From NCBI RefSeq assembly GCF_022549785.1, contig NZ_JAKZGO010000022.1, positions 1 to 59,228 of the forward strand: a DNA stretch of 59,228 nucleotides. Direction: 5' to 3'. This DNA comes from Belliella alkalica (GTDB lineage: Bacteria; Bacteroidota; Bacteroidia; Cytophagales; Cyclobacteriaceae). Every line of letters begins with the position of its first letter. The stretch's first letter is position 1. A program made the translations under genes and the position numbers. The notes under the pieces are model-generated. The model was not told where the DNA came from, made no database searches, and worked only from the letters and a program-made list of their open reading frames with translations. This document shows positions 18,530 to 42,215 of the stretch, in pieces.

Positions 18530-18534
18530 CGGAT

Positions 18535-20590: not shown

Positions 20591-20736
20591 GATTAGTTTT
20601 ACTTTCTATTCAATTCCTCAGCAATTTAGGATATCATCCCCCACACATGGCAAGAGGCTACGGCATAAAACCGTGTCGCTCTGCTTACTTTTTATTCCGT
20701 TTCCTCTTGCATTTAGTGGCCGCTGAATCCTTGAGA
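20591..20736 (+). repeat. 146-bp repeat, copy A, with inverted palindromic core
   Basis: The left 66 bases match 42070-42135 with one difference. Then gcaagag (20650-20656) and ctcttgc (20704-20710) enclose a 47-base core. Aligned directly with the core of copy B it has 27 of 47 matches; aligned after reverse complementing it has 41 of 47. The right 33 bases match copy B at 28 positions. Similarity stops sharply on both sides, so this is a discrete element. Confidence 0.9.
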
Positions 20737-20991
20737 ACTGCCATCCAAACACACGGAAGTATAGACAGCATGCTTGAAAATGAATTGGGGATAGGGGAAA
20801 AAGAAAAAAACAAACTCAGAAAGAAATTTTTGGTAAAAAAATAATTCCCTTGTAAATCCAAAGCTAGATTTATTAGGAAGGTTTCTAGTATTTAACCTGT
20901 TGATTATTAGTAAGTAAAAAAGAAGTTTTGTTCTAACAACGTCTTTTTTACTTATGTTCACAGTATCCTGAAGATACAATTTGCCAATAAG
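20737..20991 (+). other. Short open tail after repeat A
   Basis: An open frame runs out of the repeat and reads a protein-like tail (HGSIDSMLENELGIGEKEKN, then KLRKKFLVKK) to a TAA at 20842. It may be the 3' end of a gene whose front was lost when the repeat or the neighbouring locus arrived. The rest, to the S9 peptidase stop, shows nothing. Confidence 0.3.
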
Positions 20992-23232
20992 CTATTTTAT
21001 GCCTAACGTTTTCCAATCAGGAGGTGTAGTGTTCAATAGGTTTTTGACAAAGAAGTCTCTTCTCAAGCGCTCTCCATATTCACCCCCAGAACTGTGGCCC
21101 ATGCCTGGAAACATCATAAATTCAAATTCCTTATTGTGCTTCACAAGTTGATCAACCAGCTGATAGGTGGATGCAGGATCAACATTGTCATCGATTTCCC
21201 CAACCATCAAGAGAAGCTTTCCTTCTAGGTTTTTGGCATTGCTGACATTGGAGCATGCTTGGTAATGGTCACCTGTTGGAAGTCCCATCCATTGTTCATT
21301 CCACCAAATCTTATCCATTCTGTTGTCATGACAGCCGCAGGAAGATACAGCGACTTTATAAAACTCTGGAAAAAACAGCAAAGCTCCTGTAGAATTCTGA
21401 CCACCTGCTGAGGTTCCAAAGATTCCAACACGCTCCAAATCCATGTATGATCTGTCCTTTTGTGCTGCTTGCATCCAAAGGATTCTGTCGGGAAAGCCAG
21501 CATCTTTCAGGTTTTTCCAAGCTACATCGTGAAAACCCTTAGACCTGTTGGAAGTTCCCATACCATCGATCTGAACTACTATAAACCCAAGTTCAGCAAG
21601 CTCATTGAGACCATAGTAATTTGGATTGAATGACTTGGGAACATGCGAACTGTGAGGTCCAGCATATATGTATTCTATTACAGGGTATTTTCTGGAAGGA
21701 TCAAAATTGCTGGGTTTGATGATCAAGCCCCAAATATCTGTCTCGCCGTCACGCCCTTTGGCAGCAAATATCTCTGGTGCTTTCCAGCCAGCTTTCTCCA
21801 ATTGTTCTACATTTGCCTCTTCCAAATTGGATATTATTTTCCCATTTCTTGTATCCTTGATTACTGTGATAGGGGCAAGGTCTTGTCTTGAGTATTTATC
21901 TACAAAATATTTTTTATCCTCCGAAAGTGTAATTTCATGGTTGGCGTCCTCCTTGGTTAGCGCGACAAGACCTTTTCCGTCCAAACCTATACTATAAAGA
22001 TGGGTATGATAAGGGTCTTCTCCTTTATTTTTCCCACTGGCAGTAAAGTAGATCAAGCTCTTTACTTCATCTACATGTAATACATCCCTTACTACCCACT
22101 CGCCTTTTGTGATTTGGTTAATTACTTTGCCATTTTTGGAGTCTATAAGGTATAGGTGTCTCCAACCGTCTCTTTCAGAAGCCCAGATTATCTGATTTTT
22201 TTCGTCTAAATCTTTTCTGAAATTTTTCCCACTGTAATCAATAAACGTTTCGCTTAGCTCTTCAATCAATGCTCTCACTTTTCCATTCTTGGCATCCATC
22301 TCAAAAATAGTGTATCGTTGATGTCCTCTTTCGTTGTATTCCCAAGTAATTGCATTACTTTCTTTATTCCATTTCAATCTTGAAAGTGCATATTGCTTGT
22401 TCATTTGACTGATGTCAGCCAAGAATGAATTGCCCGTTTCCACATCAATTACTACAGGCGTACGGATGGGCAATGCATCCCCAGGTTTCAAATAATCCCT
22501 TTCGAAAACCTTTGGTTGAAATTGATCTTCAGGTGCTGATGCTATCAAGGTCAATTTTCGCACTTCGCTGGGACGAAATTTAAACAATGCTATTTTCTTG
22601 CTGTCTGAAGACCAGTGGATCGTTGAGGAATAATATTCTCCGGGCATTCCATCGAAAGTCAATTGTTTGACTTTTCCAGTTGATATATCTTTTACAAATA
22701 CATTGTAATCTCTAATAAATGCCTCTTGGGTCTTGTCTTCGGATTTTGTAGCTCTTTCGCCCAATTCATTGTCCCTGCTCCCCCAATAGCTGTTATTGCC
22801 ACTTATAGTCCTGATTTTTTCCAGTTTTTCAGAGTTTTCATTCCATTTCCAAATAATATTGTTGTGTCGAAACTCAAAGTTTCCATCTTTGATAATGATG
22901 TCAGAAATCTGCAAGTTTCCCTTATTGAATTCGGTCTTAACGGAATCTGAAAGTGATTTCAAAAAAGTAGTTGATGTAAATAAAGGTTTCTTCTCTTTCT
23001 TGTCGATGTCAAACGTAAAATATTTTTTTCCATCTTCAGATTGTATTGAATAGGTCAAAAGATTTTTGTTTTGCCATACAATCTGTGTAGGTGAAAAATA
23101 TACTTTATCCTTGATATTCTCTTTAAGTTCTTTGGCTCTTTGATAATCTGCTAGTTCCCCTTGCGCTGAACTGATACTTGGAAATAGTAATTGGATGATA
23201 AAAAGGCAAATAATTAAAGAGGAGTTTTTCAT
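20992..23232 (-). CDS. S9-family prolyl oligopeptidase-type peptidase (DPP IV-like)
   Basis: The 746-residue protein has a signal peptide (FIIQLLFPSISSAQ), a DPP IV N-terminal beta-propeller (for example DYNVFVKDISTGKVKQLTFD and WASERDGWRHLYLID), and a C-terminal alpha/beta hydrolase. The catalytic Ser is in FGTSAGGQ (about residue 607), Asp in GEIDDNVDPAST (about 681) and His in GMGHSSGG (about 712). Enzymes of this group release dipeptides or cleave after proline in the periplasm. GTSAGG instead of the common GxSYGG is a known minor form. It borders the glycan locus and reads toward repeat A. Confidence 0.9.
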   Translation of the reverse strand: MKNSSLIICLFIIQLLFPSISSAQGELADYQRAKELKENIKDKVYFSPTQIVWQNKNLLTYSIQSEDGKKYFTFDIDKKEKKPLFTSTTFLKSLSDSVKTEFNKGNLQISDIIIKDGNFEFRHNNIIWKWNENSEKLEKIRTISGNNSYWGSRDNELGERATKSEDKTQEAFIRDYNVFVKDISTGKVKQLTFDGMPGEYYSSTIHWSSDSKKIALFKFRPSEVRKLTLIASAPEDQFQPKVFERDYLKPGDALPIRTPVVIDVETGNSFLADISQMNKQYALSRLKWNKESNAITWEYNERGHQRYTIFEMDAKNGKVRALIEELSETFIDYSGKNFRKDLDEKNQIIWASERDGWRHLYLIDSKNGKVINQITKGEWVVRDVLHVDEVKSLIYFTASGKNKGEDPYHTHLYSIGLDGKGLVALTKEDANHEITLSEDKKYFVDKYSRQDLAPITVIKDTRNGKIISNLEEANVEQLEKAGWKAPEIFAAKGRDGETDIWGLIIKPSNFDPSRKYPVIEYIYAGPHSSHVPKSFNPNYYGLNELAELGFIVVQIDGMGTSNRSKGFHDVAWKNLKDAGFPDRILWMQAAQKDRSYMDLERVGIFGTSAGGQNSTGALLFFPEFYKVAVSSCGCHDNRMDKIWWNEQWMGLPTGDHYQACSNVSNAKNLEGKLLLMVGEIDDNVDPASTYQLVDQLVKHNKEFEFMMFPGMGHSSGGEYGERLRRDFFVKNLLNTTPPDWKTLGIK

Positions 23233-23461
23233 TACAGAAATGTTTGTTGGGGTTTAATTTTCACATGCCATATGCAATAGACGTAAAATTACATGATTTT
23301 TAACTTGTACATTTCTCCAATCATAGCCAAAGTTGATACTATATTATCCATATTTTCATTCAAAATAGATGCTAAATGCGTCTTGTTTTAGACTTTACTT
23401 AATTTGACTAATGTACACCAATGATGTTTTTACTTTTTGGGAATCTGGTGTTATTCATGGA

Positions 23462-23469
23462 TAGTTTTG
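23462..23469 (+). promoter_or_regulatory. Candidate -7 promoter box of the GH51 gene
   Basis: TAGTTTTG matches TAnnTTTG and lies 79 bases before the ATG at 23549. The 316-base gap between the divergent peptidase and GH51 genes holds nothing else that I can support. A weak relative of the locus motif (gttgatactatattatcc, 23332-23349) is present but may be chance. Confidence 0.35.
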
Positions 23470-23548
23470 TGCTAAATTTTCAATGAAATACTTTTTAATT
23501 TTAATGAACACTAGATAGAGCTTGATAACCCACAAAAATCACAAAAAA

Positions 23549-25891
23549 ATGAGAAGAAAATCAGACAAATTATTTAGACTGTTTATGGTAATATCGGTAA
23601 TCAGCATGCTTTCTTGTCAGCATTCACCCAAGGATTCGGGAATCATTGATTTATCCCCAGGCTTAGGGTCGGCCAAAGACAGTGTGAATGGATGGGAAAG
23701 AGAGTATTGGAGTCCAAAGGAAAATTACAAAATCATAGATTTGGAGGATGCTAAACTTGCTGTTTTGGCTATTGAGGCTGATTCTTTTTCGATATCTAGG
23801 TGGTATAGAAAAGTCCAGCTGAAACCCTATGGTACATACAAAGTAACAGGATTGATAAAGGCTGAAAATGTAGTAAATCAAGGAGAAAAAGGAGGAGCAG
23901 GTATCAGGCTGGGGCATATAACTTTAGACAATGATACCGTTTTGGTCGGTACTACCGATTGGATTTCCTTTGAGCATGAGTTCAATACCGAAGGCTTTGA
24001 CAGTTTTTTGGTAGAAAGCATCTTGGGAAAAGAAGGGCCTGCAAAAGGAGCCTTGTACCTTAAGAATGTAGAAGTTCTAGAAATTGAGGTTGCCGAATTG
24101 AACCCAGCAGTCAAGATTGACCTGTCAGAACAGAGAGAACCTATGGAAGACTATATTTATGGTCAGTTTATTGAGCACATGGGTAAATGTATCTATGGTG
24201 GGATTTGGTCGGAATTGTTGGAGGATAGAAAGTTTTTCTACGCACCAGGATCGGAAAATAGTCCATGGAAAGTAACAGGGTCGCAAGTTAGCCATGACAG
24301 TTCATTTAAGTATTCAGGTAATCCAACACCTTTGATTGATCTTAATTCCACTGAATTGCAGGGATTGGAGCAAAGGAATCTAAAGTTTAAGGATAAAGCT
24401 TATGAAGGTTACTTTTTGTTGGATATTCCGGGAAATGTAAAACCTGAAATTTTCTGGTTGTCGGGAGACCAAAAACAGGCAGTAGAAATTTCATCCACTG
24501 AAAAGTCTGGTAGCTATACCAAAGTAGCTTTCTCCTTCCAACCTTCAAGAGAGGTGGAAGATGGTGGTTTGGGGGTGACAGCCAAAGGTTCGGGAAAGAT
24601 GCGTTTGTTGGCAGCCACATTGATGCCTTCAGACAATGTGAAAGGTTTCCGGCCTGATGTGTTGGCATTGATGAAAGAACTGGACGCGCCCATCTACCGT
24701 TGGCCAGGGGGGAATTTTGTAAGTGGCTATGATTGGAAAGATGGTTTGGGAGACCGAGATGCCAGACCTACCCGTTACGAGCGTGCTTGGAATGGTTTGG
24801 AAACCAATGATGTGGGGATCCATGAATTTATGGAGTTATGCAAGCTTTTGGAAACCGATGCAAACATCGCTGTCAATACTGGTTTGGGGACAAAAAAAAT
24901 GGCTGCAGAGGAAGTGGAGTATGTCAATGGTGATGTCTCAACAAAAATGGGTAAATGGAGAGCGCAAAACGGCCATCCAGAACCATATAATGTAAAACTC
25001 TGGGCGGTAGGAAATGAAATGTTTGGCGATTGGCAACTTGGAAACATACCTATTGGGGAATATGTAATTAAGCACAATGAAGTGGCAGAAGCAATGAAGG
25101 AAGCCGATCCAAATATAGAACTGATTGGGGTAGGTTTTCCAGGACGTTGGAATGACATGATGTATGGGCATTGTCTGGAAAATATGGATTACATCAGTGA
25201 GCATATTTATAAGCAAGATTGGCATTCCGGGGGATTGCTGACACATGCCCGGCAGCTTTCCGATCTTATCAGGGAGGTGGCAGAAGAACACAGAAAGAGG
25301 AGCGAAGATCCTGAAAAACCAATATTGAGGATTGCCATGGATGAGTGGAATTACTGGTATGGTGACCATGTGCATGGTCTCTTGGGAACTCGATATTTTC
25401 TAAGGGATGCACTTGGTATTGCAGCAGGCTTGAATGAGTTTTCCAGACAATCAGATATTTACTATATGGCAAATTATGCCCAGACGGTCAATGTGATTGG
25501 TGCCATCAAAGCAACAAAGACAGGTAGCTGGATGGAAAGCACAGGTTTGGTGTTGAAGATGTACAGGCATCATTTTGGATCGATCCCTCTAAACCTGGAA
25601 GGGGGCCACAGTCCCTTGGATGTGGCAGCTGCATTGACGAAAGATAAGAAATTCCTCACTTTGGCTGTGGTGAATGCCAATTTTAAAGATTATGAGCTGG
25701 GAATTGGTTTGGCTGGAAATGTTGATTTGACAGAAGGGGAGATGTTTATTGTTACAGCTCCTGATGACATGGATTTCAATGATGAATCAGAGGAGAAAAT
25801 CACGCTTGTATCAAATTCAATTTCTTTAGTGAATGGCAAAATTAAAGTGCCTAAAACAAGTTCTGTTATTTATAGATTCCCTCTTGAATAA
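23549..25891 (+). CDS. GH51 alpha-L-arabinofuranosidase lipoprotein
   Basis: The ATG at 23549 starts a lipoprotein signal (ISMLSC); a TTG nine codons upstream is ignored. A carbohydrate-binding-like beta domain (residues about 30-190) precedes the GH51 catalytic barrel, which starts YGQFIEHMGKCIYGGIWSEL. WPGGNFVSGYDWKDG and the acid/base Glu in AVGNEMFGDW (about residue 489) are present, and the nucleophile Glu is in MDEWNYWYGD (about residue 598). A C-terminal beta domain closes the protein. The enzyme removes terminal alpha-L-arabinofuranose from arabinans, arabinoxylans or arabinogalactan proteins. Confidence 0.93.
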   Translation: MRRKSDKLFRLFMVISVISMLSCQHSPKDSGIIDLSPGLGSAKDSVNGWEREYWSPKENYKIIDLEDAKLAVLAIEADSFSISRWYRKVQLKPYGTYKVTGLIKAENVVNQGEKGGAGIRLGHITLDNDTVLVGTTDWISFEHEFNTEGFDSFLVESILGKEGPAKGALYLKNVEVLEIEVAELNPAVKIDLSEQREPMEDYIYGQFIEHMGKCIYGGIWSELLEDRKFFYAPGSENSPWKVTGSQVSHDSSFKYSGNPTPLIDLNSTELQGLEQRNLKFKDKAYEGYFLLDIPGNVKPEIFWLSGDQKQAVEISSTEKSGSYTKVAFSFQPSREVEDGGLGVTAKGSGKMRLLAATLMPSDNVKGFRPDVLALMKELDAPIYRWPGGNFVSGYDWKDGLGDRDARPTRYERAWNGLETNDVGIHEFMELCKLLETDANIAVNTGLGTKKMAAEEVEYVNGDVSTKMGKWRAQNGHPEPYNVKLWAVGNEMFGDWQLGNIPIGEYVIKHNEVAEAMKEADPNIELIGVGFPGRWNDMMYGHCLENMDYISEHIYKQDWHSGGLLTHARQLSDLIREVAEEHRKRSEDPEKPILRIAMDEWNYWYGDHVHGLLGTRYFLRDALGIAAGLNEFSRQSDIYYMANYAQTVNVIGAIKATKTGSWMESTGLVLKMYRHHFGSIPLNLEGGHSPLDVAAALTKDKKFLTLAVVNANFKDYELGIGLAGNVDLTEGEMFIVTAPDDMDFNDESEEKITLVSNSISLVNGKIKVPKTSSVIYRFPLE

Positions 25892-25987
25892 AGAGCAAAA
25901 ATGGAAGGGTTCAGTTAAAATAAATGAGGTTTTTGACCTAGAAAACAACAGGGTAAATTGTAAGTTTATTTATCATATTTAAATCAA

Positions 25988-26023
25988 ATAAAGGCCAAAT
26001 TGAAAATTCAATTTGGCCTTTAT
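25988..26023. terminator. Bidirectional terminator between convergent GH51 and GH127 genes
   Basis: Perfect 17-base arms, ataaaggccaaattgaa and its complement, enclose two bases. The arms are A/T-rich at the outside, so it can serve both genes that converge on it. Confidence 0.85.
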
Positions 26024-26229
26024 ATTTATTCTATTCTTAAACTATATTATCTGAATACGCGCTTCTTTGCCAGAAGCATTATTGTTCTCGCCCAACCTTT
26101 AATTTCAATATAAATACCCAATTATTTATGAGAATCTAAATGAGGGGGAAATTATATAAATTTAAGTTATTGGCAGAATAGCGGATAATCTTATTCAATT
26201 GATTAGGGTCTTCCATGAAAATTCCCCAA

Positions 26230-29200
26230 TCACTTTAAGTTGAAGTCCAAATAAACTGAATGACGCTCATAAGAATCGTAAAACGGCTTGAACACAACTC
26301 CATCTATAATAAATTCTAAAGGCTTGTCAGTCTTATTTATTGTATTTCCAATGTCATTTACATCTAAAGTTATTTTTCTCCAATCTTTTCTAGCCTCAGG
26401 TTCTTGGGCTGCTAGTAAAACTGGACCATAAAACAAACTTGCGATGTTCTGTTGATCCATTATCGGGTCTAGGTAAAAATGAAATGGCATCTTTAAATCT
26501 ATAACATCACCTTTTTTCCATTTCCTATTGATAGTCAGGTAAGTACCTGGGTTTGCATCAAGTTTTTGATCTTTTCCATTTATTTTTACTGAAAAGCCAT
26601 TTGTAGCCCAACCTGGTACTCGCACTTTGATGTCAAATTTGCCGCTGCCATTGATTGTTAGGCGTGTCTCATCTTCTTTTGGAAAGCTTGTAGATTGCTC
26701 CACTATCACATTACGCTCTTCCCAATTTAGGGTCGAAGGAATATACAAATTGACATAGAGGCTTTTATTGTCCTTACTTTTGTAGTAAATGGCACTTTGC
26801 AGTTTGGTACTACTTTCTATCGCTGTTCCATTGCAGCAGGTGAAACCTGTCATCTTTGAATTCCCAAAATGCTTGATCGACCCAGGTCTTAGTGGAACAT
26901 GATAGGTGTTTCCTGGATTGTCTTGCGCTACGGATGCCAGAATGTGGTTGTATAATCCACGCTCATAGTAATCCATGAACTCCCCACGCTGATCGAAAAG
27001 GAAGAGGTCATTTGTCAACTTCAGCATATTGTAAGTGGCACAAGTTTCATTTTGTCCCCCTGAAGAAAAGCCATTTTCATACAATGTCGCAGGCTGTGCA
27101 ATAAAACATTCTGCATTTGCCGGATTTCGTGCTCCAGCCACTCCTCCAATGCTATACATGTAATCATTCACCGTTTTGTGCCAGAAGTTGTCAGCGATCT
27201 TGTAATACTCAGGTTTAAGGGAAGCGCGGTAAGTTTCTATACTTCCCACTACTTGTGGAATATGCTGATTGGCATGAAGTCCACGAAAGACATCAACATT
27301 TTTAGCGAGTCCATGTGTTTTGGAGGTGTCCCCAAAGAACATTCTGATGTTATCAAATAACTGTGCAGTTTCCAGATATTCAGTTTTATCCGTTATTCGA
27401 TAAAGTCGAGCCATTGATTCATTCATTCCACCGAATTCACCGGCAATGTAGCTGTTCCACATTTTTACAAGTTGCTCGGTTGGTAATTGACTCAGTCGGG
27501 CATGTACCCAATCGCCCATCCCTGTGGCTACATCAAGTGCTTTTTTGTTGCCACTGACTGTATAGATATCGATCAATCCCGCCAATATTTTGTGGAGTGT
27601 GTAATATGGCGCCCAAACCTGAGAATTCTGCCCTCCATATGTGGCTCCCTGCTCAAGCATGATAAATTGATCTGGTGGATAGGCACTGATATAGCCTTTT
27701 CCCCAATTCCAATAATCAGTTCGGATGCCTGATTCACTGAGGTCGGAATCATAGGAGTTTTTCCCAGGACCAGCGGGCACAGCCCTTGGATCTAAGACAA
27801 ATGGAATCCCAGGTGCTTTCTCATTTCCTGATAACCTTGACAATTCATACAGGGTATTGACCATATATTCCATTTTTCCCAGGAAGTTTTCCTGCAATTT
27901 CTTGTCATATCCAGTTCCCTCATATGCTTGTGCAATAGCTGTGAGATAATGACCTGTAGCATGACCTCTCAATTTTGTCTCTTGACTGTCCCAAACACCA
28001 AGTGGAGTGGCACCTTCAGGTTGCTTTTGACCATAAGTATTACGGAACATATATAAGAAAGAGTCTGGATTTGTTTCTGCCAATGTTGTGATAAACTTGT
28101 CACGGTTTTCAATGAATTTTGTGTCATGTCCATGTGTATCCGAATTCAAAGAAACCTGACCTAAGTTAAAAGTTTCCAATTGTAAAGTTGGAGTAGCAGA
28201 TTTGGCTTGGTTGTTTACTTGAACTATTGCCTTTGGCTGAAAATTTGTACCCGAAACACGGCCTGTTAACGTGTAGTTTCCTGACTTGAGAACTGCATTA
28301 TTGTCCGTTTCAGCTGGCCAAAGTACACGTACCTTAGGGCCTTTTATCCCATCTTTATAGATACCATCAACATAGCTTGGCAATCTTGGTAACTCACCGA
28401 TTTCTGTTTCAACATTCACATCAGAAACACCTATCAAATAACTGTTGAACAATTGTTGCTGTGACTCAGGGAATTTCTGGAGATCATCTTCTTTCTTATC
28501 CTCGTTTACTATTCCTTCGTTCAGGTTTTGGGTGGTTTTGCTGTATATTCTGCCAACTTGCTTAGTGCTTAACGGGATTCTGTAAATTCGAAAGTCATGA
28601 ATTAATGCATTCAATGTACGTCCTTCCGACAGATTTGATTTTCCGATATAGAGTTGTTTTTTAGCGTCAGGTTGTTTTTGGAAGATCTTGCTAAGATTGA
28701 ATCCAGTATCATTGATTTGTCCTACAGGTTTCCCGTTGACATAAGTTACCAAAGATTTTCCGGGTACATCTACGACGATTGCAATGTGAACCCATTTGTT
28801 GATGTCGATTTCATGTGATACAAGTTCTTTTTTGTTTGCATCTGTGGTACTTATTGTAGTGCAAAGGCCTTTTTGGCTTTTTGTACCCGTAAGTGTAGTG
28901 ACAAAGTGTTTGTCATCACCATTTCCAAAATCAAAGAAAAATTGGCCAGATTCCGCAGAACGTAAATTGACCCAACCAGATATACTGATAGATTCTATAT
29001 CTGCCAATCCGTCAGAAGGGATAGTGATGTAGGCGTCTTTATTGCCATTGAGAGAAATGACTTTTCCAAACCTGTTGTCATTTATGAATACTGGTTCATT
29101 TCCATGAAATTTTCCATGGAGGTTATTCCTAGACCAATCTTTGACATCACCATCAAATAGGTATCTTGCAACCATCCCCGTTTCCCCAATTCCATCCAAG

Positions 29201-29295: not shown

Positions 29296-29338
29296 TATTC
29301 TGTTTTTATATTTTCGAGGATTGATAATGTAAAAATAT

Positions 29339-29346
29339 CAAAAATA
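29339..29346 (-). promoter_or_regulatory. Candidate -7 promoter box of the DUF1680 gene
   Basis: On the minus strand TATTTTTG fits TAnnTTTG, 43 bases before the ATG. The 384-base gap also contains gtgaatattgtattggtaat at 29462-29481, a close match to the motif found upstream of three other units of this locus. It is in the opposite orientation to the gene and without the fixed spacing. Confidence 0.4.
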
Positions 29347-29633
29347 AGCCTTTGCCTATAAGGCTATCTTAGCCAACAATCATACTATTTTACCTTATAT
29401 ACTTTCTTGAATTCGAATGCTATTTTCTCATTCTTTTCCAATTTGAGTTTAGGCCAAATTGGTGAATATTGTATTGGTAATAGATGATTTTGTGAAAGTC
29501 TGCATGAATTAGATTTTATACCTTGTGGATAGATTTATTTGATTGAAATTTTGATGGGATTCTAGAGCAGATTTCATTTTGATCACTCTTTCAAATTGCA
29601 AGATCTAATAAAATTTAGGGTTTAAATTACAAT

Positions 29634-29662
29634 AAAGGAGGGGAGAGGTTTTTCCCTCCTTT
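29634..29662 (-). terminator. Terminator of the DUF885 gene
   Basis: Arms aaaggaggg (29634-29642) and ccctccttt (29654-29662) pair perfectly around an 11-base loop, 17 bases after the stop of the minus-strand peptidase gene. The T tract is stronger on the plus strand, so it may also block transcription from the other side. Confidence 0.55.
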
Positions 29663-29679
29663 TTCTATTGTTTGGGTAT

Positions 29680-31613: not shown

Positions 31614-31637
31614 AAAAGGAACAAATATTTACAAGAA

Positions 31638-32552: not shown

Positions 32553-32569
32553 AGCTTTGTTAAATCCTT

Positions 32570-33491: not shown

Positions 33492-33668
33492 GATTTTTTT
33501 ATTAGGGGTGTTTATTGATTCTAGATATTTGAAATAACCAATGTCAACATTAGCTATTGTGGATGCCACCAATAGGAACAAAGTGACAGGTTTGAGGTGA
33601 TTTGGGTAGATTTAGTGGTTTATTGATATATAATAATATGAAAATGAGCTTATTAATAATAGCAGTAG

Positions 33669-33694
33669 GTTAATATTGTATTAGTATTGGGCAA
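33669..33694 (+). promoter_or_regulatory. Locus motif, distal copy in the AraC/DUF5695 intergenic region
   Basis: gttaatattgtattagtatt begins here; over 26 bases it matches the copy at 33965 at 22 positions. A box CACTTTTG lies 58 bases downstream of its start, one base off the spacing and one base off the consensus of the other copies. The 592-base gap (33492-34083) has no gene. Confidence 0.55.
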
Positions 33695-33964
33695 TTGAGG
33701 TGTAGAAAACACCCGATTTTTTCGATCACTTTTGATTTTCTTGTAGAAAATGAACAATTTGTTTCTTTCTTTAGACATGATTTAACCAGTTTTCAGACTT
33801 TATAAAAATTCGGTTTTAAAATTAATTTTATCCATTAAAAATATACTTTTATATGAAGTGCCGATAAAACTTTGGTCTTGGTGTTTTATTAAGAATGAAA
33901 ATATTGTTTATTGATTCTAAAAATGGTTGTTATTTGGTGAAATATTTCCCTAAAATGCACCAAA

Positions 33965-34029
33965 GTTAATATTGTGTTATTAATGGGTAATAAACTATGG
34001 TTTTCAGATAAGTGTATTAATTACATTTG
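33965..34029 (+). promoter_or_regulatory. Locus motif plus -7 box upstream of the DUF5695 gene
   Basis: gttaatattgtgttattaat starts at 33965, a second conserved block gataagtgtattaattacat starts 42 bases later (34007), and the -7 box TACATTTG starts at 34022, 57 bases from the motif. Upstream of susC the same three parts have identical spacing. Confidence 0.65.
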
Positions 34030-34083
34030 TATAAGAGCCAAAGATTTATTTTTCTAAGGCAAAACCTTAATCATCAGTTGCGC

Positions 34084-36843
34084 ATGAAACAATTACAATT
34101 TATACAGAGAGCACTTGGATTTTCAACAGATAGATCAAGTCGATTTTCATTCCTTGTAGGCCTGATGCTGCTTTTTTCAATTCCAGTATCTGCACAAGAT
34201 ATCTGGGATAGAATCAAGGCAAAGCCACAAACCTTAGAGACAACAAAGAAAAGCTACCTTGAAAATGATATTTTCAAATTGGGTTTGCTAAATAGCAGCC
34301 ATACAGTGGCCTCTTTGAATCCAAAGGTGGATCTCAGTTTTGATTTTGTTCCATCCGAACTTTTGGATATCAGAAGTAGGGACAGTCTCTATCACCTAGG
34401 TGATATCAACCTTATGTATCGTATTGGGGAAGAGGAGACCTGGAAGAGTTTTTCAAGTGCACATAAAAGAGAGTCTTCAGCAAATGAACAAAAAGCGACG
34501 TCCCAAAGAGCAGTTTCTTTGGTAAGTAAAAGTCTTCGTGATACCGATCAAATAGCCGTTTACAGAACTTGGGAACTTGGTGAAAATTCTCTGACCCTTA
34601 CTTTTGAATTGAAAAATGAATCTGGTAAACCAGTTGAGATTGGGTATTTGGGTGTTCCTATGATATTTGATAATATTTTACACTGGAAAAGTCTTGAAGA
34701 TGCTCATTTGGAGAAGGTGTTCTATGATCCTTATATAGGAGGAGATGCAGGTTATCTTCAGGTGGTGAGACTACATGGGAAATCCCCCGTTCTGTTGGTT
34801 GTACCCAAGGAAAATGCTTCTTTTGAAGCTTACAGCCCATTGTTAGATGACCAAACACCAAGAAACATCACTTTTGAGGGGTTCCATGATTGGGTGATCC
34901 ATAGTAAGGCCAAGGCTGAAGGGCAATGGAAAAATGCCGAGCAATGGATTGAGCCAACCTCCATGGTAATTGCTCCAGGAGAAAGCTACACCAGTAGCCT
35001 AGAATTTTTGTTGGCAGATGACCTCAGATCAATTGAACCGACTTTGGTTGCTAATAATAGGCCCGTAGCAATTGGATTGCCTGGCTATGTAGTGCCAATG
35101 GATGTCAAGGCAGGCTTGCGTTTGAAAGCACCCCAGTCCATCAAAGAAATGACTGTATCCCCAGAAGGCTCATTAATAATCACAAAGAATCCCGAAAAGG
35201 ATGCCGAAGGATGGTTGGCATTTGATGTGGAAGGAAAGCAGTGGGGAAGGGCGAAAGTAGAAATCACTTACCTTGACGGAACTAAGCAAGTATTATCTTA
35301 TAAAGTCATCCATCCAGAAACTGAGTTGGTGGCCAAAATGGGTAGTTTCCTTACCACAGAGCAATGGTATGAAAATGAAGAAGATCCTTTTGGAAGACAC
35401 AATTCGGTGATTTCTTATGACTATGAGAAAAAAGCTCAGGTAGTAGAAGACTCTAGGGTATGGATAGCTGGCTTGAGTGATGAAGCTGGAGCAGGGTCTT
35501 GGCTCGCAGCCTTTATGAAGCAATTGCTAGACCCAAAAATGGAGGAGGTAGAAAAGCTCGGGAAATTCATGCACGAAACCCTTTGGGGAGGCATACAATA
35601 TAATGAAGGAGAGAATAAATACGGAGTGAAAAAGAGTGTGTTTTATTATGAGCCTGAAAAGATGCCGGCTGGCACTTACAGTAAAAGTGTCAATTATGGT
35701 ACATGGGCTGCTTGGGACAAGGAACATGCGGACTCGCCGGGACGCTCTTACAACTATCCTCATGTGGCAGCTGCGCATTGGATTATGTATAGACTATTGA
35801 GATATCATCAAGGATTTGAACTTCCCCAAACTTGGGATTGGTATCTTGAAAATGCTTTCAGCACTTCGATGGCAATGGTAGAACTGGCACCACATTATGC
35901 ACAGTTTGGTCAGATGGAAGGAACAGTTTTTTTAATGCTTTTAGATGATCTTAAGAAAGAGGGAATGGAGGCCTTTGCCAAAGAACTTGAAGGGGCTATG
36001 AGAGCAAGAGCAGATGTTTGGTCAGGTTTGGCTTATCCTTTTGGCAGTGAGATGCCTTGGGATTCCACCGGGCAGGAAGAAGTTTATATGTGGGCAAAGT
36101 ATTTCGGGATGGATGAAAAAGCGGACGTTACGCTCAATGCGATTTTGGCTTATATGCCAGCCATACCACACTGGGGTTACAACGGATCAGCCAGAAGGTA
36201 TTGGGATTTTCAATACGGTGGAAAAATTCAGAGAATCGAAAGACAGCTTCACCATTATGGATCTGCATTGAATGCTATTCCTGTAATGCATGAATATATC
36301 GATAACCCAGAAAATCTTTATCTTTTGAGGGTTGGATATGCAGGGATGGTAGGTGGAGTGGCCAATGTCACAGAGGATGGTTTTGGGCCAGCGGCATTTC
36401 ACTCGTATCCTGAAATGTTGGCAATTGATCCTTACAGTGGAGATTATGGTTCAGGGTTTTTTGGCTATGCTGTGAATTCCAAATCAATATTGCTTCATGA
36501 TAAGACTTTTGGATGGCTGGGATTTGGAGGAAATGTCAAAGAAATAGAAGGAAATATAAAGCTTGAGCTGACTTCGGGAGGAAGAAAGCAATTGTTTTTG
36601 GCACCTGAAAAATTACTTGTAAAACTGGAATCAGGAAATATCCTTGAAGCTTCATACAATCCAGAGTCAGGTAAGCTTCATTTGCTTCTGGATAAGGCGA
36701 ATGCCAACACAAAGCACGCCTATTTTAGAATATCTCATCCTAATAAAAGCGATTGGGATTTAGGGTTAGAAAAACTAGAAAACGGTGCATACATTCTTCC
36801 TTTGGGAACTGATCAAAAAGAATTGATAATCAGTCTGAAATGA
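34084..36843 (+). CDS. DUF5695-type exported protein of a glycan locus
   Basis: The ATG at 34084 gives 919 residues with a signal peptide (FLVGLMLLFSIPVSAQ). The front half is beta-rich (about 60-390). The rear half is helical with aromatic motifs typical of (alpha/alpha)6 barrels (VNYGTWAAWDKEHADSPGRS, YNYPHVAAAHWIMYRLLRYH, YWDFQYGGKIQRIERQLHHY). I assign it to the DUF5695 group from memory of such proteins in Bacteroidota loci. A glycoside hydrolase or lyase role is likely but unproven. It precedes susC with its own terminator between them. Confidence 0.6.
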   Translation: MKQLQFIQRALGFSTDRSSRFSFLVGLMLLFSIPVSAQDIWDRIKAKPQTLETTKKSYLENDIFKLGLLNSSHTVASLNPKVDLSFDFVPSELLDIRSRDSLYHLGDINLMYRIGEEETWKSFSSAHKRESSANEQKATSQRAVSLVSKSLRDTDQIAVYRTWELGENSLTLTFELKNESGKPVEIGYLGVPMIFDNILHWKSLEDAHLEKVFYDPYIGGDAGYLQVVRLHGKSPVLLVVPKENASFEAYSPLLDDQTPRNITFEGFHDWVIHSKAKAEGQWKNAEQWIEPTSMVIAPGESYTSSLEFLLADDLRSIEPTLVANNRPVAIGLPGYVVPMDVKAGLRLKAPQSIKEMTVSPEGSLIITKNPEKDAEGWLAFDVEGKQWGRAKVEITYLDGTKQVLSYKVIHPETELVAKMGSFLTTEQWYENEEDPFGRHNSVISYDYEKKAQVVEDSRVWIAGLSDEAGAGSWLAAFMKQLLDPKMEEVEKLGKFMHETLWGGIQYNEGENKYGVKKSVFYYEPEKMPAGTYSKSVNYGTWAAWDKEHADSPGRSYNYPHVAAAHWIMYRLLRYHQGFELPQTWDWYLENAFSTSMAMVELAPHYAQFGQMEGTVFLMLLDDLKKEGMEAFAKELEGAMRARADVWSGLAYPFGSEMPWDSTGQEEVYMWAKYFGMDEKADVTLNAILAYMPAIPHWGYNGSARRYWDFQYGGKIQRIERQLHHYGSALNAIPVMHEYIDNPENLYLLRVGYAGMVGGVANVTEDGFGPAAFHSYPEMLAIDPYSGDYGSGFFGYAVNSKSILLHDKTFGWLGFGGNVKEIEGNIKLELTSGGRKQLFLAPEKLLVKLESGNILEASYNPESGKLHLLLDKANANTKHAYFRISHPNKSDWDLGLEKLENGAYILPLGTDQKELIISLK

Positions 36844-36884
36844 ACATTTTGAAAGCGATAAGTTTTTCTTTTTTCAATAAGGTT

Positions 36885-36923
36885 GAAACCTGCCGGAATA
36901 CAATTTTCGGTAGGTTTCTTTTT
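36885..36923 (+). terminator. Terminator after the DUF5695 gene
   Basis: gaaacctgccg and cggtaggtttc pair with one G-T pair, followed by a T5 tract. It lies 42 bases after the stop, so susC needs its own promoter. Confidence 0.75.
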
Positions 36924-36993
36924 GTCCTTTCCAATTTAAATTTTTATGAAAAGATTTAGGTATTTAAGTTTATTCTGTGATAGTTCAAAATGA

Positions 36994-37058
36994 GCTAATA
37001 TAGTATAGGTTTAAGCTACTTTTGTTGAATTTTTTGATAAGTGTTTTAAGTACATTTA
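36994..37058 (+). promoter_or_regulatory. Locus motif plus -7-like box upstream of susC
   Basis: gctaatatagtataggttta starts at 36994, gataagtgttttaagtacat at 37036 (42 bases on), and TACATTTA, a near-consensus -7 box, at 37051 (57 bases on). TACTTTTG at 37017 is an alternative -7 box. Confidence 0.6.
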
Positions 37059-37140
37059 TAAAGTAATCCCAAGAGACTTTTTTAGATGTATTGGTCTCAC
37101 TATAGGGATTAATAAACTTAAATATCAACCCAATTACAGT

Positions 37141-40100
37141 ATGGAAAACTTTACTAAATTAAAAAGTATCGTTGCCATAGGACTGATGCTTACCTTTCAT
37201 TTTGGAAGTTCACAGACCTATGCCTCGATCATGTTGGATGACTCCAGATCTTCGGATGGAGTAGTAGAAGCAAGGGCTGTTAGCTCCATGGATAAGACTA
37301 TAAGTGGGACTGTATATTCTACGGAAGATGGACTTACCATGCCTGGTGTGAGTGTAGTACTGAAAGGTACCACTAGAGGAACAGCTACGGATATAGATGG
37401 TTCATTTACCCTGGAAGTCCCTGACAATGGAGGTACTTTGGTGTTCAGTTTTGTTGGGTTTGAAACACAGGAGGTTGCCGTTGCAAACCAATCTGTATTT
37501 GAAATCAAACTAAAGCCGGATATTACCTCCATGAATGAAGTGGTAGTGGTAGGTTACGGAACTATGAGGAAAGGAGATGTCACAAGTTCCATCGGAGGTG
37601 TAAAAGAGGAAGACTTCGTCAAAGGTGCAGTTAGGGATGCTGCGCAGCTAATTCAGGGAAAAGTAGCAGGCTTTCGAGTGACCACACCTAGTGGAGATCC
37701 AGCAGCAGGCACAGAGATTAATCTACGAGGTTTAAATTCTATCAATGGTACAAATCAACCCCTGATATTGATTGATGGGATTCCGGGAACTATGAACACT
37801 GTTGCACCAGAGGATATTGAGTCTATTGATGTTTTGAAAGATGGATCTGCAGCAGCAATCTATGGAACCAGGGCAACAGGAGGTGTCGTCTTGATTACTA
37901 CCAGAAAAAATAGTGAAGGTAGAAATACAGTCAACTACAATAACTATATGAGTGTACAGACCATCCAAAGGAGACCACAGCTTTTGACAGGAGATGACTA
38001 CAGAAGATTGATTGCAGAAGAAGGAATTGCTTACACAGATTATGGGGGAAATACGGATTGGATAGGAGAGATGCTTCAGACGCCAATAAGCCACAACCAC
38101 AATCTGACATTTTTTGGAGGTAACAGCACTACAAATTTCACTGGATCAATTAATTATAGAGATTGGGATGGTATCTTCAAAAGAACCGGTCAGGAAAGGC
38201 TTACAGTTAGGGCAGATTTAAACCATAGTATGTTTGGTGACAAACTTCGAGCTAACGTTCAAGTAATCAATAGGGTTATAAAAGCCGCTAGGGGAGGTGC
38301 TGATGGCTATGCATTTAGGCAAGCTATGATCAGAAATCCTACTGACAGGGTTCGTGATGAGCAAGGAAACTGGCAAGAAAGGGATGGGTATTTTTATGAA
38401 AACCCTATTTCTAGAATATATGAATACTCTTCAGAATCTAGAAACAACGAGATGCGAATGAGCGGATCATTAAGTTACAACCCTATTGATGATTTGGATC
38501 TGAAACTTCTTGTTTCCAATGTGCAGAACAACAATATTTTTGGTGGAGCTACCACTTTCAGTCATACCGACACTTGGCTTAACAACAGGAACAGTTCTGC
38601 AAATAGATCAACGAATGCCTACAATGAAAATCTGGTAGAATTGACTGGAAATTATAGTAAGTCTATCGGTAAAAATTATTTCACTGTTCTTGGAGGATAT
38701 AGTTGGCAAGATGCAGTTTATGAAGCATTTGAAGCAAGCAACTGGAACTTCCCGACTGACCTTTATACATGGAATAATCTAGGCGCAGGAGCAGCACTGG
38801 CCAATGGTCAAGCTGCTATGGGAAGTACCAAAAATAAATGGCAGTTGGCTGGATTCTTTGGAAGGTTTACTTACAATTTTGACGATAAATACCTTTTGAT
38901 GGCCAGTGTTAGAAGAGAAGGTTCTTCACGGTTTGGAGCCAATTACCAATGGGGTACTTTTCCTGCCGCTTCCGTAGGCTGGAGAATCAGCAATGAACCT
39001 TTCCTTAAAGGGGTTAGAAACGTGGATGAAATCAAAGTTAGGGCAGGATATGGAGTAACAGGGACAATTGCAGGTAATCCATATTTGTCTCAAATTAGTT
39101 ACAATTTCGATAGAGGACAGGGAGCATATGTTGGCGGGAATTGGGTTCAGGGATTTATACCTACCAGAAATTTCAATCCAGACCTGAGATGGGAAAGAAA
39201 ACTAGAATACAACGTAGGGGTAGATTTCAGCTTTTTTCAAGACAGAATTAGCGGAGCAATTGATTTCTACCGAAGAAATGTCAATGACCTTCTTTACAAT
39301 TTCCCTGTTCCAGTACCTCCCTATCTCACAGGTAATATCATGCTGAATGCAGGAACTATGCGGAATGAAGGGATGGAGTTTTTGCTGAATTTTACACCGA
39401 TCAAAAAAGGAGATTTTGTCTGGAATTCTAACTTCACCTATTCGACCAATAGGAACAAGCTTGTAAACCTTTCCAATGAACAATTTGATGTGTCGAGGGA
39501 ATTCTTCAATGCTGGAGGTACAGGAGAGCCAATACAGGATTACACCCATCGTGTGGAGGTCGGAGGCCCGATTGGACAGTTCTTCGTTTGGAAATCTGTT
39601 GGGGTCAATGAAGATGGGCTTTGGTTGATTGAAAACCAGGAAGGTGAGGTAATCCCGATTACAGATGCAGTTCCGGAAGACAGACAGTTTTATGGAAACG
39701 GGATTCCAAAGCACATTATAGGATTCAATAATTCTTTTACCTACAAAAGGTTTGATCTTGAAGTGAATATGAGAGGGGCTTTTGGACATGATATTCTGAA
39801 TTTTCAGCGAATGTTTTATGAAAACCCTAAAAACATTGCCTACAATATGCTCAATACGGCCTATGATCCAGTTTATGGCCAAAGACTTAATTCTGACTTG
39901 GCTTATGTCAGTCATTACATAGAAAGTGGTGATTATCTCAAATTGGACAACGTGACTTTTGGATATAGTTTTCCAGGAAGGGGGATTATGCAAAATGCAA
40001 GAATCTATGCATCAGGATTAAACTTGTTTGTGCTTACAAAATATCAGGGGATCGATCCCGAAGGTGTTAGTATTTTGGGATTTGCACCAGGAAATGACGA

Positions 40101-40158
40101 AAGAGACAAATACCCAACTACAAGAACATTCACCTTGGGTTTAAACATTTCATTCTAA
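37141..40158 (+). CDS. susC: SusC/RagA-family TonB-dependent outer-membrane transporter
   Basis: The 1005-residue protein has an N-terminal carboxypeptidase-regulatory domain (about 50-135; ISGTVYSTEDGLTMPGVSVV, FVGFETQEV) followed by the plug. Plug features are MNEVVVVGYGTMRKGDVTSS, LRGLNSINGTNQPLILIDG and DIESIDVLKDGSAAAIYGTR. The barrel ends with the terminal-Phe strand TFTLGLNISF. It imports oligosaccharides or glycopeptides across the outer membrane with SusD as lid. The susD start is 12 bases after its stop. There is no extra N-terminal signalling domain for an anti-sigma factor, consistent with AraC rather than ECF control. Confidence 0.95.
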   Translation: MENFTKLKSIVAIGLMLTFHFGSSQTYASIMLDDSRSSDGVVEARAVSSMDKTISGTVYSTEDGLTMPGVSVVLKGTTRGTATDIDGSFTLEVPDNGGTLVFSFVGFETQEVAVANQSVFEIKLKPDITSMNEVVVVGYGTMRKGDVTSSIGGVKEEDFVKGAVRDAAQLIQGKVAGFRVTTPSGDPAAGTEINLRGLNSINGTNQPLILIDGIPGTMNTVAPEDIESIDVLKDGSAAAIYGTRATGGVVLITTRKNSEGRNTVNYNNYMSVQTIQRRPQLLTGDDYRRLIAEEGIAYTDYGGNTDWIGEMLQTPISHNHNLTFFGGNSTTNFTGSINYRDWDGIFKRTGQERLTVRADLNHSMFGDKLRANVQVINRVIKAARGGADGYAFRQAMIRNPTDRVRDEQGNWQERDGYFYENPISRIYEYSSESRNNEMRMSGSLSYNPIDDLDLKLLVSNVQNNNIFGGATTFSHTDTWLNNRNSSANRSTNAYNENLVELTGNYSKSIGKNYFTVLGGYSWQDAVYEAFEASNWNFPTDLYTWNNLGAGAALANGQAAMGSTKNKWQLAGFFGRFTYNFDDKYLLMASVRREGSSRFGANYQWGTFPAASVGWRISNEPFLKGVRNVDEIKVRAGYGVTGTIAGNPYLSQISYNFDRGQGAYVGGNWVQGFIPTRNFNPDLRWERKLEYNVGVDFSFFQDRISGAIDFYRRNVNDLLYNFPVPVPPYLTGNIMLNAGTMRNEGMEFLLNFTPIKKGDFVWNSNFTYSTNRNKLVNLSNEQFDVSREFFNAGGTGEPIQDYTHRVEVGGPIGQFFVWKSVGVNEDGLWLIENQEGEVIPITDAVPEDRQFYGNGIPKHIIGFNNSFTYKRFDLEVNMRGAFGHDILNFQRMFYENPKNIAYNMLNTAYDPVYGQRLNSDLAYVSHYIESGDYLKLDNVTFGYSFPGRGIMQNARIYASGLNLFVLTKYQGIDPEGVSILGFAPGNDERDKYPTTRTFTLGLNISF

Positions 40159-40170
40159 AAGGATCAAATT

Positions 40171-41760
40171 ATGAAAATTATAAATAAAATAATCTTAGGC
40201 TCAGCTTTTTTGGTAAGTATTAGCTTTGCTTTGCAATCCTGTTTAAACCTGAATGAGGAAGTTTATTCGGAAGTATTGGCAGAAAATTTCAGGCCAGGTG
40301 AGCGGGATATTCCAGCGATTATCGCACCTGTTTATGGTTCTTTGAGAGCATTGATGATGGGTTGGCAAGGACATTTTGACGTACAAGAAGAATCTGCAGA
40401 TGTTATCGTAACACCTGCTAGGCCAAATGGATGGTATGATGGGGGCACTTATGTCAGAATGCATCAGCATACCTGGACTCCACTTCAGTGGCAGCCGACC
40501 AATTTGTGGAATAGTTCCTACAGAAGTGTGACTACTGCAAACAGGGTGATTTCACAGATTGAAGATGGGGAGATCCAAATTTCTGAGGGAAGAGAAGAGG
40601 TAATAGCTGAACTCAAAGGGGTGCGTGCTTTTGCATATTATCTACTGCTTGACAATCATGGTAATGTGCCAATTGTAACTGATTTTAGGGATGTAAGTCT
40701 TCCTGAGCAAAGTGATAGAACAACCTTGTACAACTTCATCATCGAAGAAATCGAGAATGTGTTACCTTCCTTAAGTCAGGACGCAAATAGTACTTATGGA
40801 CAAATGAACTATTGGGTCGCAAAAACTCTCCTCGCGAAAATTTACCTTAACGCTGAGGTCTATACAGGTACTCCGCAATGGCAAAAAGTCATTGAGGTAT
40901 GTGATGAAATCATAGCTGGAGGAGTCTATTCTTTGGACCCAGTATATTCCGATGTATTTCATTGGGAAAATCAAAACAACCAAGAAATCATTTTTGCGAT
41001 TCCTTATGATGAGATTTTTGGACAAGGAAATACAGTTCATATGAAGACTTTGGATCCGCTAAGTAGGTTTGTCTATGGAATGCAGGCTGGTCCTTGGGGA
41101 GGAAATTGTGCAGTACCACAGTTTATAGATAGCTATGATGAAGAAGATGGAAGGCTTTACGATACTTGGATTCAGGGACCTCAGCGCCATGCAAACACGG
41201 GAGAAGTGGTCATTACTTATAGAAAAGAAGTGCCAAGTATTGCAGCCACAGCGTCCAATGATGGTTATAGAATCGGTAAATACCAAATTAAGCCAAGTGC
41301 TACCGGTAGTTTGGATAATGATTTTCCGTTTTTCAGATATGCCGATGTATTGATGATGAAAGCAGAAGCTTTGCTTAGAACTGGAAATGGATCAGAAGCT
41401 GCAAGTTTGGTGTCCGAGGTAAGGACAAGAGCTTTTGCCAATTCCAACCCAGCAAAAGCAACTGTTTCGGCCGCTGTATTGGAAGGTAACAGCAGGTACC
41501 AGTATGGTTATCAAAATTTGGATGGAAGTATTGACTTAGATTCAGGAGTGATCCCTTTTGGAGGATTCTTGGATGAACTAGGTTGGGAGTTTGCAGCCGA
41601 AGCGCATAGAAGACAAGATCTTATCCGTTTTGGAGTGTTCCAAACCAAGAGTTGGTTCAATCATCGACCGCATCCACAGGCACAGGATAAAATTATTTTC
41701 CCAATACCGGAGACTGAGATCAACAACAATCCAAATCTCGTACAAAACCCGAGTTATTGA
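40171..41760 (+). CDS. susD: SusD/RagB-family surface glycan-binding lipoprotein
   Basis: A lipoprotein signal (ISFALQSC, Cys24) is followed by the SusD fold: TPR-like helices (YRSVTTANRVISQIEDGE, ELKGVRAFAYYLLLDNHGNV, VAKTLLAKIYLNAEVY) and the conserved C-terminal FRYADVLMMKAEALLRTGN, then FAAEAHRRQDLIRFG and a final IFPIPETEINNNPNLVQNP. It acts as the hinged lid of the SusC channel and binds ligand. It is the last gene of the susCD unit; a strong terminator follows. Confidence 0.95.
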   Translation: MKIINKIILGSAFLVSISFALQSCLNLNEEVYSEVLAENFRPGERDIPAIIAPVYGSLRALMMGWQGHFDVQEESADVIVTPARPNGWYDGGTYVRMHQHTWTPLQWQPTNLWNSSYRSVTTANRVISQIEDGEIQISEGREEVIAELKGVRAFAYYLLLDNHGNVPIVTDFRDVSLPEQSDRTTLYNFIIEEIENVLPSLSQDANSTYGQMNYWVAKTLLAKIYLNAEVYTGTPQWQKVIEVCDEIIAGGVYSLDPVYSDVFHWENQNNQEIIFAIPYDEIFGQGNTVHMKTLDPLSRFVYGMQAGPWGGNCAVPQFIDSYDEEDGRLYDTWIQGPQRHANTGEVVITYRKEVPSIAATASNDGYRIGKYQIKPSATGSLDNDFPFFRYADVLMMKAEALLRTGNGSEAASLVSEVRTRAFANSNPAKATVSAAVLEGNSRYQYGYQNLDGSIDLDSGVIPFGGFLDELGWEFAAEAHRRQDLIRFGVFQTKSWFNHRPHPQAQDKIIFPIPETEINNNPNLVQNPSY

Positions 41761-41786
41761 TTATTTTTGGTTTAATATTGATAAAG

Positions 41787-41819
41787 CTACCATGCAAAAT
41801 TATCGCATGGTAGTTTTTT
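41787..41819 (+). terminator. Terminator of the susCD unit
   Basis: ctaccatgc and gcatggtag pair perfectly around 9 bases, followed by a T7 tract, 27 bases after the susD stop. The rest of the gap up to repeat B (42070) shows no gene. Confidence 0.85.
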
Positions 41820-42069
41820 AGTCAATTAGTTAATTGGCTTTACCAAACTTACTGATTTTTGGTTAATGGCCTCATTTTATGCCCACTATGAGTCTGTGTT
41901 CATTCCTTTTAAGAGAATCTTGAAAATTCCAAAACTTTTCATTTCTAGGTTGAAATTCTAGCGAGACTCATTTATTTTTAAAAATGTCTTATTTCAGACA
42001 ATAATTGGTCTTGAGACTATTCTTGATATTTTTTAACTTTTAAAATAATCCAACAGCCACTTGCGAACC

Positions 42070-42215
42070 GATCAGTTTTACTTTCTATTCAATTCCTCAG
42101 CAATTTAGGATATCATCCCCCACACATGGCAAGAGGAAACGGAATAAAAAGTAAGCGCAGCGTCACGGCTTTATGCCGTTTCCTCTTGCATTCAATAGCA
42201 GCTGAATCCTGGAGA
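42070..42215 (+). repeat. 146-bp repeat, copy B, with perfect 14-bp palindrome arms
   Basis: This is a direct repeat of 20591-20736 in its flanks, but its 47-base core (42136-42182) is in the opposite orientation. Here gcaagaggaaacgg and ccgtttcctcttgc pair perfectly, while copy A has two mismatches in the same arms. A short open frame starting MARGNGIK runs through it; the matching frame in copy A starts MARGYGIK. Both look like by-products of the repeat. Confidence 0.9.

Follow-up and report, generated by a model that had tools for sequence, protein, structure and literature searches.

A repeated hairpin of Bacteroidota mobile elements as a probable single-stranded-DNA promoter, with one inverted copy in Belliella alkalica

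The stretch of DNA considered here, referred to as the window, comprises 59,228 nt of Belliella alkalica (contig NZ_JAKZGO010000022.1 of assembly GCF_022549785.1). It carries the genes of a mobilisable element and two 146-bp direct repeats, each repeat containing a hairpin (Table 1). Copy 1 lies 70 nt past the stop codon of the gene for a TraG-like coupling protein, copy 2 lies ahead of a remnant of ardC and has the core of its hairpin inverted, and a third, diverged hairpin lies upstream of a radC-like gene. An earlier sequence-only reading had described the repeat as a pair; its bounds for the two window copies were exact and both copies stand, but further copies exist in the genome and in the genus, in addition to the diverged third one in the window. 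What this hairpin may do, and how the core of copy 2 came to be turned over, are the subjects of this work. Throughout, the coding strand is that of the gene behind a hairpin, and the opposite, template strand is the one taken to be transferred to a recipient (the transferred strand, or T strand).

Table 1. Features of the window, with positions in nt from its first base
Feature	Position	Strand	Remarks
Copy 1, whole repeat	20591..20736	+	Covariance model 90.6 bits on the T strand
Copy 1 hairpin, GCAAGAG..CTCTTGC	20650..20710	+	Usual orientation of the family; arms CTACGGCATAAA / TTTATTCCGTT
Copy 1 -7-like box TAAATTGC	20621..20628	-	TAnnTTGY form, at the foot of the stem
Copy 2, whole repeat	42070..42215	+	38 nt ahead of the ardC remnant
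Copy 2 hairpin, core inverted	42129..42189	-	Left breakpoint in GCAAGAG, right breakpoint in CCGT
Copy 2 -7-like box TAAATTGC	42100..42107	-	Outside the flip
MobC, MobA relaxase and TraG-like coupling protein genes	16782..20520	+	Of a mobilisable element
Third, diverged hairpin upstream of radC	15838..15885	-	Full model match 15802-15925, E 4.8e-9
Third hairpin -7 box TAAATTTG	15915..15922	+	Points away from radC in the duplex
RadC-like JAB gene behind the third hairpin	15295..15765	-	PF04002, E 2e-33
Truncated ArdC, N-terminal domain only	42254..42778	+	Residues 1-160 of 302 of an intact relative

The match counts given earlier for the two repeats were reproduced. The left flanks agree at 65 of 66 positions and the right flanks at 28 of 33, while the 47-base core agrees at 27 of 47 positions in the same orientation and at 41 of 47 once one copy is reverse complemented. 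Over the full 61-bp hairpin the two copies share 41 positions unflipped, 55 when the whole hairpin is flipped, and 57 when the flip is made to end within the CCGT of the right arm. A BLAST search of the genome with copy 1 aligned its core to the minus strand of copy 2 (90%, E 3.3e-17), and copy 2 matches the covariance model on both strands, with 52.8 and 44.8 bits. The inversion had been placed between GCAAGAG and CTCTTGC. It does begin inside GCAAGAG, but the proposed symmetry is not there, for the right outer arm of copy 2, TTTCCTCTTGC, has kept its normal orientation. The mismatch bubble that is conserved in the family has been lost from the copy 2 hairpin.

The search with copy 1 found four full copies and one partial copy in the genome; beyond the window, the full ones are at C16:18719 and C84:137849 and the partial one is at C16:16349. 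Copies are present in four of the seven other genomes of the genus that were searched, and altogether the repeat was matched in 6 of 59 genomes, five of them of the genus (the window's own included) and one elsewhere in the taxonomic family. The ten other full copies found in the genus (copy 1 together with L002, L003, L007-L010 and L012-L014) all have one orientation. Compared with copy 1 and eight relatives of equal length, the one-base-shorter L010 being set aside, copy 2 agrees at 37-41 of 61 positions unflipped, at 46-55 fully flipped, and at 49-58 if the flip reverts within the right-arm CCGT; the last arrangement beats the full flip by 2 or 3 bases in all nine comparisons. Among 295 genomes of the taxonomic family a palindromised core occurs in two, the window's genome, where it is flipped, and G158, where it is unflipped with an ardC-like gene on the usual side. 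Flipped copies with mutated arms would escape this survey of orientation. Two partial copies, consisting of the left 38-43 bases only (L006 1501-1543, which is G000:C16:16349, and L015 1501-1538, which is G005:C69:181529), lie 2.4 kb upstream of full copies and have a common block, TTTTTAACGGTTAAAA..., further left.

These comparisons bear on the proposal that the core is turned over by a recombinase acting on the 7-bp inverted repeats, which would make the hairpin an invertible recombination or attachment site. The proposal has one inverted copy in its favour, and we regard it as extremely improbable: the flip is asymmetric, leaving right-arm letters unflipped; the other palindromised core, that of G158, is unflipped, so that only the window has a flipped one; and inversion destroys the conserved bubble. 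A recombinase switch should leave both orientations among the copies and symmetric breakpoints at the inverted repeats, which is not the pattern seen here. By the earlier account's own reckoning the idea of an invertible core would fall if the other copies shared an orientation, as the ten in the genus do. Orientation and asymmetry speak against a recombinase or att site, although no search for a linked recombinase gene was made. In the invertible promoters of Bacteroides, which serve phase variation, a regulatory stretch is inverted between inverted repeats; here, by contrast, a single copy is flipped, asymmetrically, and no second state was seen. Group II intron domain V and integron attC were also considered for the hairpin and dropped by eye.

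Both breakpoints of the flip, in GCAAGAG and in CCGT, lie where the two arms are identical, and a single template switch inside the hairpin would therefore explain the inversion in one step. Had a recombinase acted at the 7-base repeats, the right bubble would, barring a second event, have been flipped too. What happened in copy 2 looks like a single copying slip within a decayed element, in which the template was switched once from one hairpin arm to the other, as the asymmetric breakpoints suggest. Of the origins suggested earlier, turning over through hairpin recombination is the one that gains support from the lone flipped copy and from breakpoints in identical stretches of the arms.

The hairpin belongs to a larger family. 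The motif CTACGGCATAAA-N12-42-TTTATTCCGTT was found in 42 of the 295 genomes of the taxonomic family, at 65 places, and the reversed pattern in none; it was also found in 16 of 395 genomes drawn across the phylum. With a covariance model built on 40 sequences, covering the upper helix only and run with stricter filters, 32 of 395 genomes of the phylum matched, and every one of them belongs to the window's class. If the phylum sample is the same, of which 98 of 395 genomes belong to the window's class by a hand count, the share is 32 of 98 against 0 of 297. Scanning named genomes with the motif gave at least 118 stretches, and among the 80 matches listed by name all but five bear Bacteroidota names. 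Four matches (L055, L068, L083 and L084) are in assemblies labelled Chlorobiota, Proteobacteria, Pelotomaculum and Parvularcula, and may reflect either misbinning or a transfer in the recent past. Among 2.9 million viral contigs, 12 stretches have the hairpin (L194-L205); these contigs may be misfiled elements, or phages that share the hairpin. Most of the instance sets used below are exact matches to the motif, and the conservation of the motif is not measurable on them. A sub-class can be recognised by eye (L060, L064, L071, L109 and similar ones) in which the promoter-side bulge is long and the other arm short, so that the CAAAGTTA-like box is displaced outward, to some 41-45 nt from the arm.

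The flanks of the hairpin carry promoter boxes, on the strand that faces away from the gene. The -7 box of Bacteroidota is described in passages of PMC9723704 as TAnnTTTG, spanning -12 to -5, and TAnnTTGY is given as a variant. Of 131 unique left flanks, 61 have TAnnTTTG on the minus strand (mean 8.8 and maximum 17 in 200 mononucleotide shuffles), and for 35 of these matches the distance to the arm is 27-29 nt. A box serving the gene in duplex DNA would have to be on the plus strand of the right flank, and there 1 of 131 has it (shuffle mean 5.5). The spaced form TTG-N18-22-TAnnTTTG appears in the left-flank minus reading of 34 of 130 instances (mononucleotide shuffle mean 1.1, maximum 5) and in each of the three other readings of 0 of 130. 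Within the window the third hairpin has the strict form of the box, and copies 1 and 2 have the TAnnTTGY form.

When the sequences are folded, the foot of the stem ends at the box. In the 60 of 130 instances that have a strict box, mean pairing is 0.81, 0.81 and 0.74 in the three bases preceding the box, 0.61 at its T and 0.26 at its A. Swapping right flanks between instances lowers the three pre-box bases to 0.57, 0.58 and 0.51, so the foot belongs to each instance; in 23 of 60 instances the 5-mer of the foot is matched by a partner within that instance's right flank, as compared with a mean of 3.3 and a maximum of 10 after swapping. In an alignment of 35 sequences, pairing is retained at a rate of 93.8% over the 22 consensus pairs, 12 of which show double changes, and the five foot pairs alone give a covariation of 0.726, against 0.227 when shuffled and at most 0.278 when slid. 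On the T strand the invariant bubble reads G.T, A.G and A.A, the G.T being kept in 34 of 35. In 127 of 130 instances the fold of the T strand is also lower in energy than that of the coding strand, by a mean of 3.2 kcal/mol. In the T-strand fold of the third window hairpin, box TAAATTTG comes directly after the stem GCCTTTTGCC/GGCAAAAAGGC. The alignments A2 (35 of 73 eligible instances) and A3 (40) were selected for TA..TT[TG] at 26-31 nt, and the conservation of the box in them is by construction. In A2, columns 66-77 and 119-131 show the upper stem and its mismatches invariant past the -33 box, which is in part motif selection.

A hairpin at a set distance upstream of genes, stable with RNA parameters as well, might also be read as an RNA leader, lying in the 5' untranslated region of a normal mRNA and controlling translation or termination. 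We find this improbable, since the promoter such an mRNA would need is scarce (plus-strand TAnnTTTG in the 118 nt upstream in only 1 of 130 instances; shuffle mean 5.1), the promoter boxes that are present face the other way, and the G.T pair is kept on the opposite strand; an Rfam scan of the window at gathering score gave 0 matches.

The genes behind the hairpins form a recurrent set. Of 169 distinct instances, 148 have room downstream, and in 101 of these a same-strand open reading frame of at least 100 aa begins no more than 200 nt away; on the opposite side the figure is 12 of 145; 78 of 112 downstream starts are 46-75 nt from the hairpin. Among 69 representative downstream proteins there are 25 RadC, 10 ArdC N-domain, 6 SSB (single-stranded-DNA-binding), 5 DUF6943, 3 ParB_N, 3 DUF932 and 1 C5 methylase. 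Counted by cluster, with Pfam naming on examples, all 121 downstream proteins include 34 RadC, 26 ParB, 18 DUF932, 15 ArdC and 6 SSB, and one helicase is also in the set. A gene of a leading-type family pointing outward within 450 nt is found on the right of 144 of 169 hairpins and on the left of 0 of 169, the families having been chosen from the right-hand side. Parts of PMC11541004 describe anti-defence genes, together with methylases and SSB, on the T strand of leading regions, and the region behind the hairpins would by this likeness be a leading region. The set distance ahead of a set of genes speaks against the attachment site and the small mobile repeat that had also been suggested; of the suggested invertible regulatory site, the regulatory half probably holds and the invertible half is not supported, the polarity being nearly fixed. 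The gene set likewise bears on the idea that the boxes are simply an ordinary promoter of double-stranded DNA, from which an antisense or small RNA would be made in the direction away from the gene. On the minus strand they do make a normal Bacteroidota promoter, but we hold this idea to be very improbable, as it leaves unexplained the stem that ends at the box, the covariation with the far arm and the genes on the other side, while the left side, towards which such a transcript would run, is poor in open reading frames and leading-type genes by the counts just given.

The hairpins are also oriented with respect to relaxase genes. With the strict motif, 81 hairpins were found in 55 genomes; 37 have a relaxase gene (PF03432) within 100 kb on the contig, and all 37 are on the same strand as it. 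A relaxed motif gave 141 places in 42 genomes with a relaxase match (the reversed-pattern control gave 3, and the flipped copy 2 was dropped); here the hairpin shares the strand of the nearest relaxase in 84 of 90 cases within 100 kb and in 64 of 69 within 50 kb. This polarity, read from sequence, suggests which strand is the T strand.

A hairpin that is conserved and covaries, bears promoter boxes on what in duplex DNA is the wrong strand, and keeps its position and polarity before a recurrent set of genes, is probably a promoter that works from single-stranded DNA. We thus favour, with some confidence, the reading that a conjugative or mobilisable element uses the repeat as a promoter while its DNA is single-stranded, that the repeat is one of a family found across the window's class of Bacteroidota, and that the core of copy 2 was inverted by a template switch. 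Both the identity of the transferred strand and its transcription while single-stranded are inferred, and the mechanism would run as follows. On entry of the T strand into a recipient, the leader would fold, and its 3' arm would present two promoter elements: in the upper stem a TTG resembling a -33 box, and at the foot, where the duplex ends, a -7 box (TAnnTTTG or TAnnTTGY) that stays largely unpaired, like a pre-melted promoter. Within this folded template strand the 3' arm would serve as non-template and the 5' arm as template, continuing into the gene, and RNA polymerase would start at the foot and run into ardC, radC, parB, ssb and others, so that proteins for anti-restriction and establishment could be produced ahead of the second strand. 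Once the DNA is double-stranded the boxes point away from the gene, and the promoter would therefore be off.

A reading with the same anatomy, that of a covarying fold with promoter boxes, is a single-strand origin, at which the folded strand recruits RNA polymerase or primase to prime the second strand and gene expression is secondary. Frpo of F reportedly does both, supplying primer and expression (Masai and Arai 1997, going by the title). We consider such an origin unlikely as the main role, for an origin would not need so many hairpins: many genes are preceded by one, each time at a set distance, and a genome often has several.

Several results weigh against a promoter on the incoming strand. 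The strict -7 box is found in under half of the flanks, and the dip in pairing at its A persists with swapped flanks (0.29 versus 0.26), so the dip is partly a property of the box itself. With shuffled flanks the T strand still folds lower in 126 of 130 instances (by 2.6 kcal/mol), and the energy gap is therefore due nearly entirely to the arms that the instances share and adds no evidence of its own. Wobble pairs in the outer stem do not choose a strand (25 versus 26 in 98 stems), and in A2, outside the invariant pair, the T strand has 20 G.U versus 10 A.C by a hand count, a strand not clearly chosen. The upper stem is more invariant than a -33 box would require. Six of the 90 hairpins of the relaxed motif oppose the nearest relaxase, among them the window's radC hairpin (15841, minus strand, with mobA on the plus strand); G002:C11, also one of the six, has a similar arrangement. 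Two Pontibacter plasmids have RadC-ArdC-MobC-relaxase-tra on one strand and lack the hairpin of the family, and on a Rufibacter plasmid the tra genes are opposed to the JAB gene. The flank controls and the even wobble count weaken the argument from strand energies; they do not weaken the covariation or the orientation of the promoter boxes.

As for these plasmids, RadC-ArdC-MobC-relaxase-tra on one strand is the order expected of an F-like leading region, and the Pontibacter and Pedobacter plasmids have the JAB gene, MobC and relaxase all on one strand. The hairpin of the family was absent from the two Pontibacter plasmids and from those of Pedobacter and Rufibacter, both when two mismatches per arm were allowed and by the covariance model, and the leader of a Chryseobacterium SSB gene had no match to plasmids at the DNA level. 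The leader of the Rufibacter JAB gene (L210, about 19830-20020) has a CAAAGTTA box, a strong fold and different arms; the box is 164 nt from the end of the folded stretch, and the T strand folds at -24.5 versus -20.6. This leader is perhaps a diverged, distant relative of the hairpin family.

In the window itself, copy 1 is an orphan, as a leading-type gene behind it was not found. It sits 3.4 kb after the relaxase gene, and six hairpins in other genomes are 3.0-3.4 kb after theirs; at four such loci a long open reading frame, TraG-like by eye only, ends just ahead of the hairpin and ardC comes after. Between the two copies are 21 kb with a peptidase, arabinofuranosidases and a TonB receptor, followed by copy 2 and the ardC remnant. 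Judging from the relaxase spacing and the TraG-hairpin-ardC order of relatives, the two copies probably mark a rearranged or twice-visited element. In the interval 20521-42069, where the order in relatives seems to be TraG-hairpin-ardC, there is a 21-kb cluster for utilisation of the arabinose type. At 15295-15925, on the minus strand, the third hairpin and its radC/JAB gene oppose mob genes 0.9 kb off, unlike most of the family.

If the single-stranded promoter is real, it would be a recognisable mark of early genes, from which the transfer polarity of an element could be read off its sequence alone; it would point by position to new candidate genes for establishment or anti-defence (RadC/JAB, DUF932, DUF6943), and would extend transcription from single-stranded DNA beyond the TTGACA/TATAAT type. 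A more far-reaching view, which we put forward only tentatively, is that Bacteroidota have a class-wide set of such promoters of an origin independent of Frpo, in which a dedicated protein recognises the invariant, mismatched upper stem, a part better conserved than the -33 and -7 boxes. Each leading gene would then have its own strand- and entry-specific switch, and the whole set would act as a regulon switched on solely during the first minutes in a new host. In the open-licence literature we found nothing on the expression of Bacteroidota element genes in the first minutes after entry, and nothing related, by title, on the arm sequences.

Among known systems, the hairpin compares most directly with Frpo. 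According to passages of PMC9849209, the Frpo of F is a stem-loop in which -10 and -35 boxes are re-formed on the strand that enters the recipient, and synthesis of the second strand turns it off. Frpo1 and Frpo2 of F, and the ssi or Frpo-like promoters of ColIb-P9 and other plasmids, are likewise stem-loops upstream of leading genes (ssb, psiB and others), rebuild promoter boxes by folding of the incoming strand, and can number more than one per element (parts of PMC9849209 and PMC11541004). The present hairpin, too, is non-coding and just upstream of genes of leading-region types, and the rebuilding of host boxes that read into the gene is indicated by the predicted fold and the covariation, with the strict box in 61 of 131 flanks. 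The Frpo' and Frpo* of Samuel et al. 2024 were similarly predicted from structure and boxes ahead of anti-defence genes, being sought by the TTGACA/TATAAT consensus and by BLAST to known Frpo (parts of PMC11541004); the main text of that article has no word beginning with "Bacteroid". Unlike Frpo and ssi, the hairpin has the -33 and -7 boxes of Bacteroidota instead of TTGACA/TATAAT, an invariant mismatched upper stem with a mostly unpaired -7 box at the foot, and RadC, DUF932 and ParB among its genes. By anatomy, position, gene types and strand logic, and with Frpo compared by description, a Frpo-type promoter with Bacteroidota boxes would be the best account of the hairpin.

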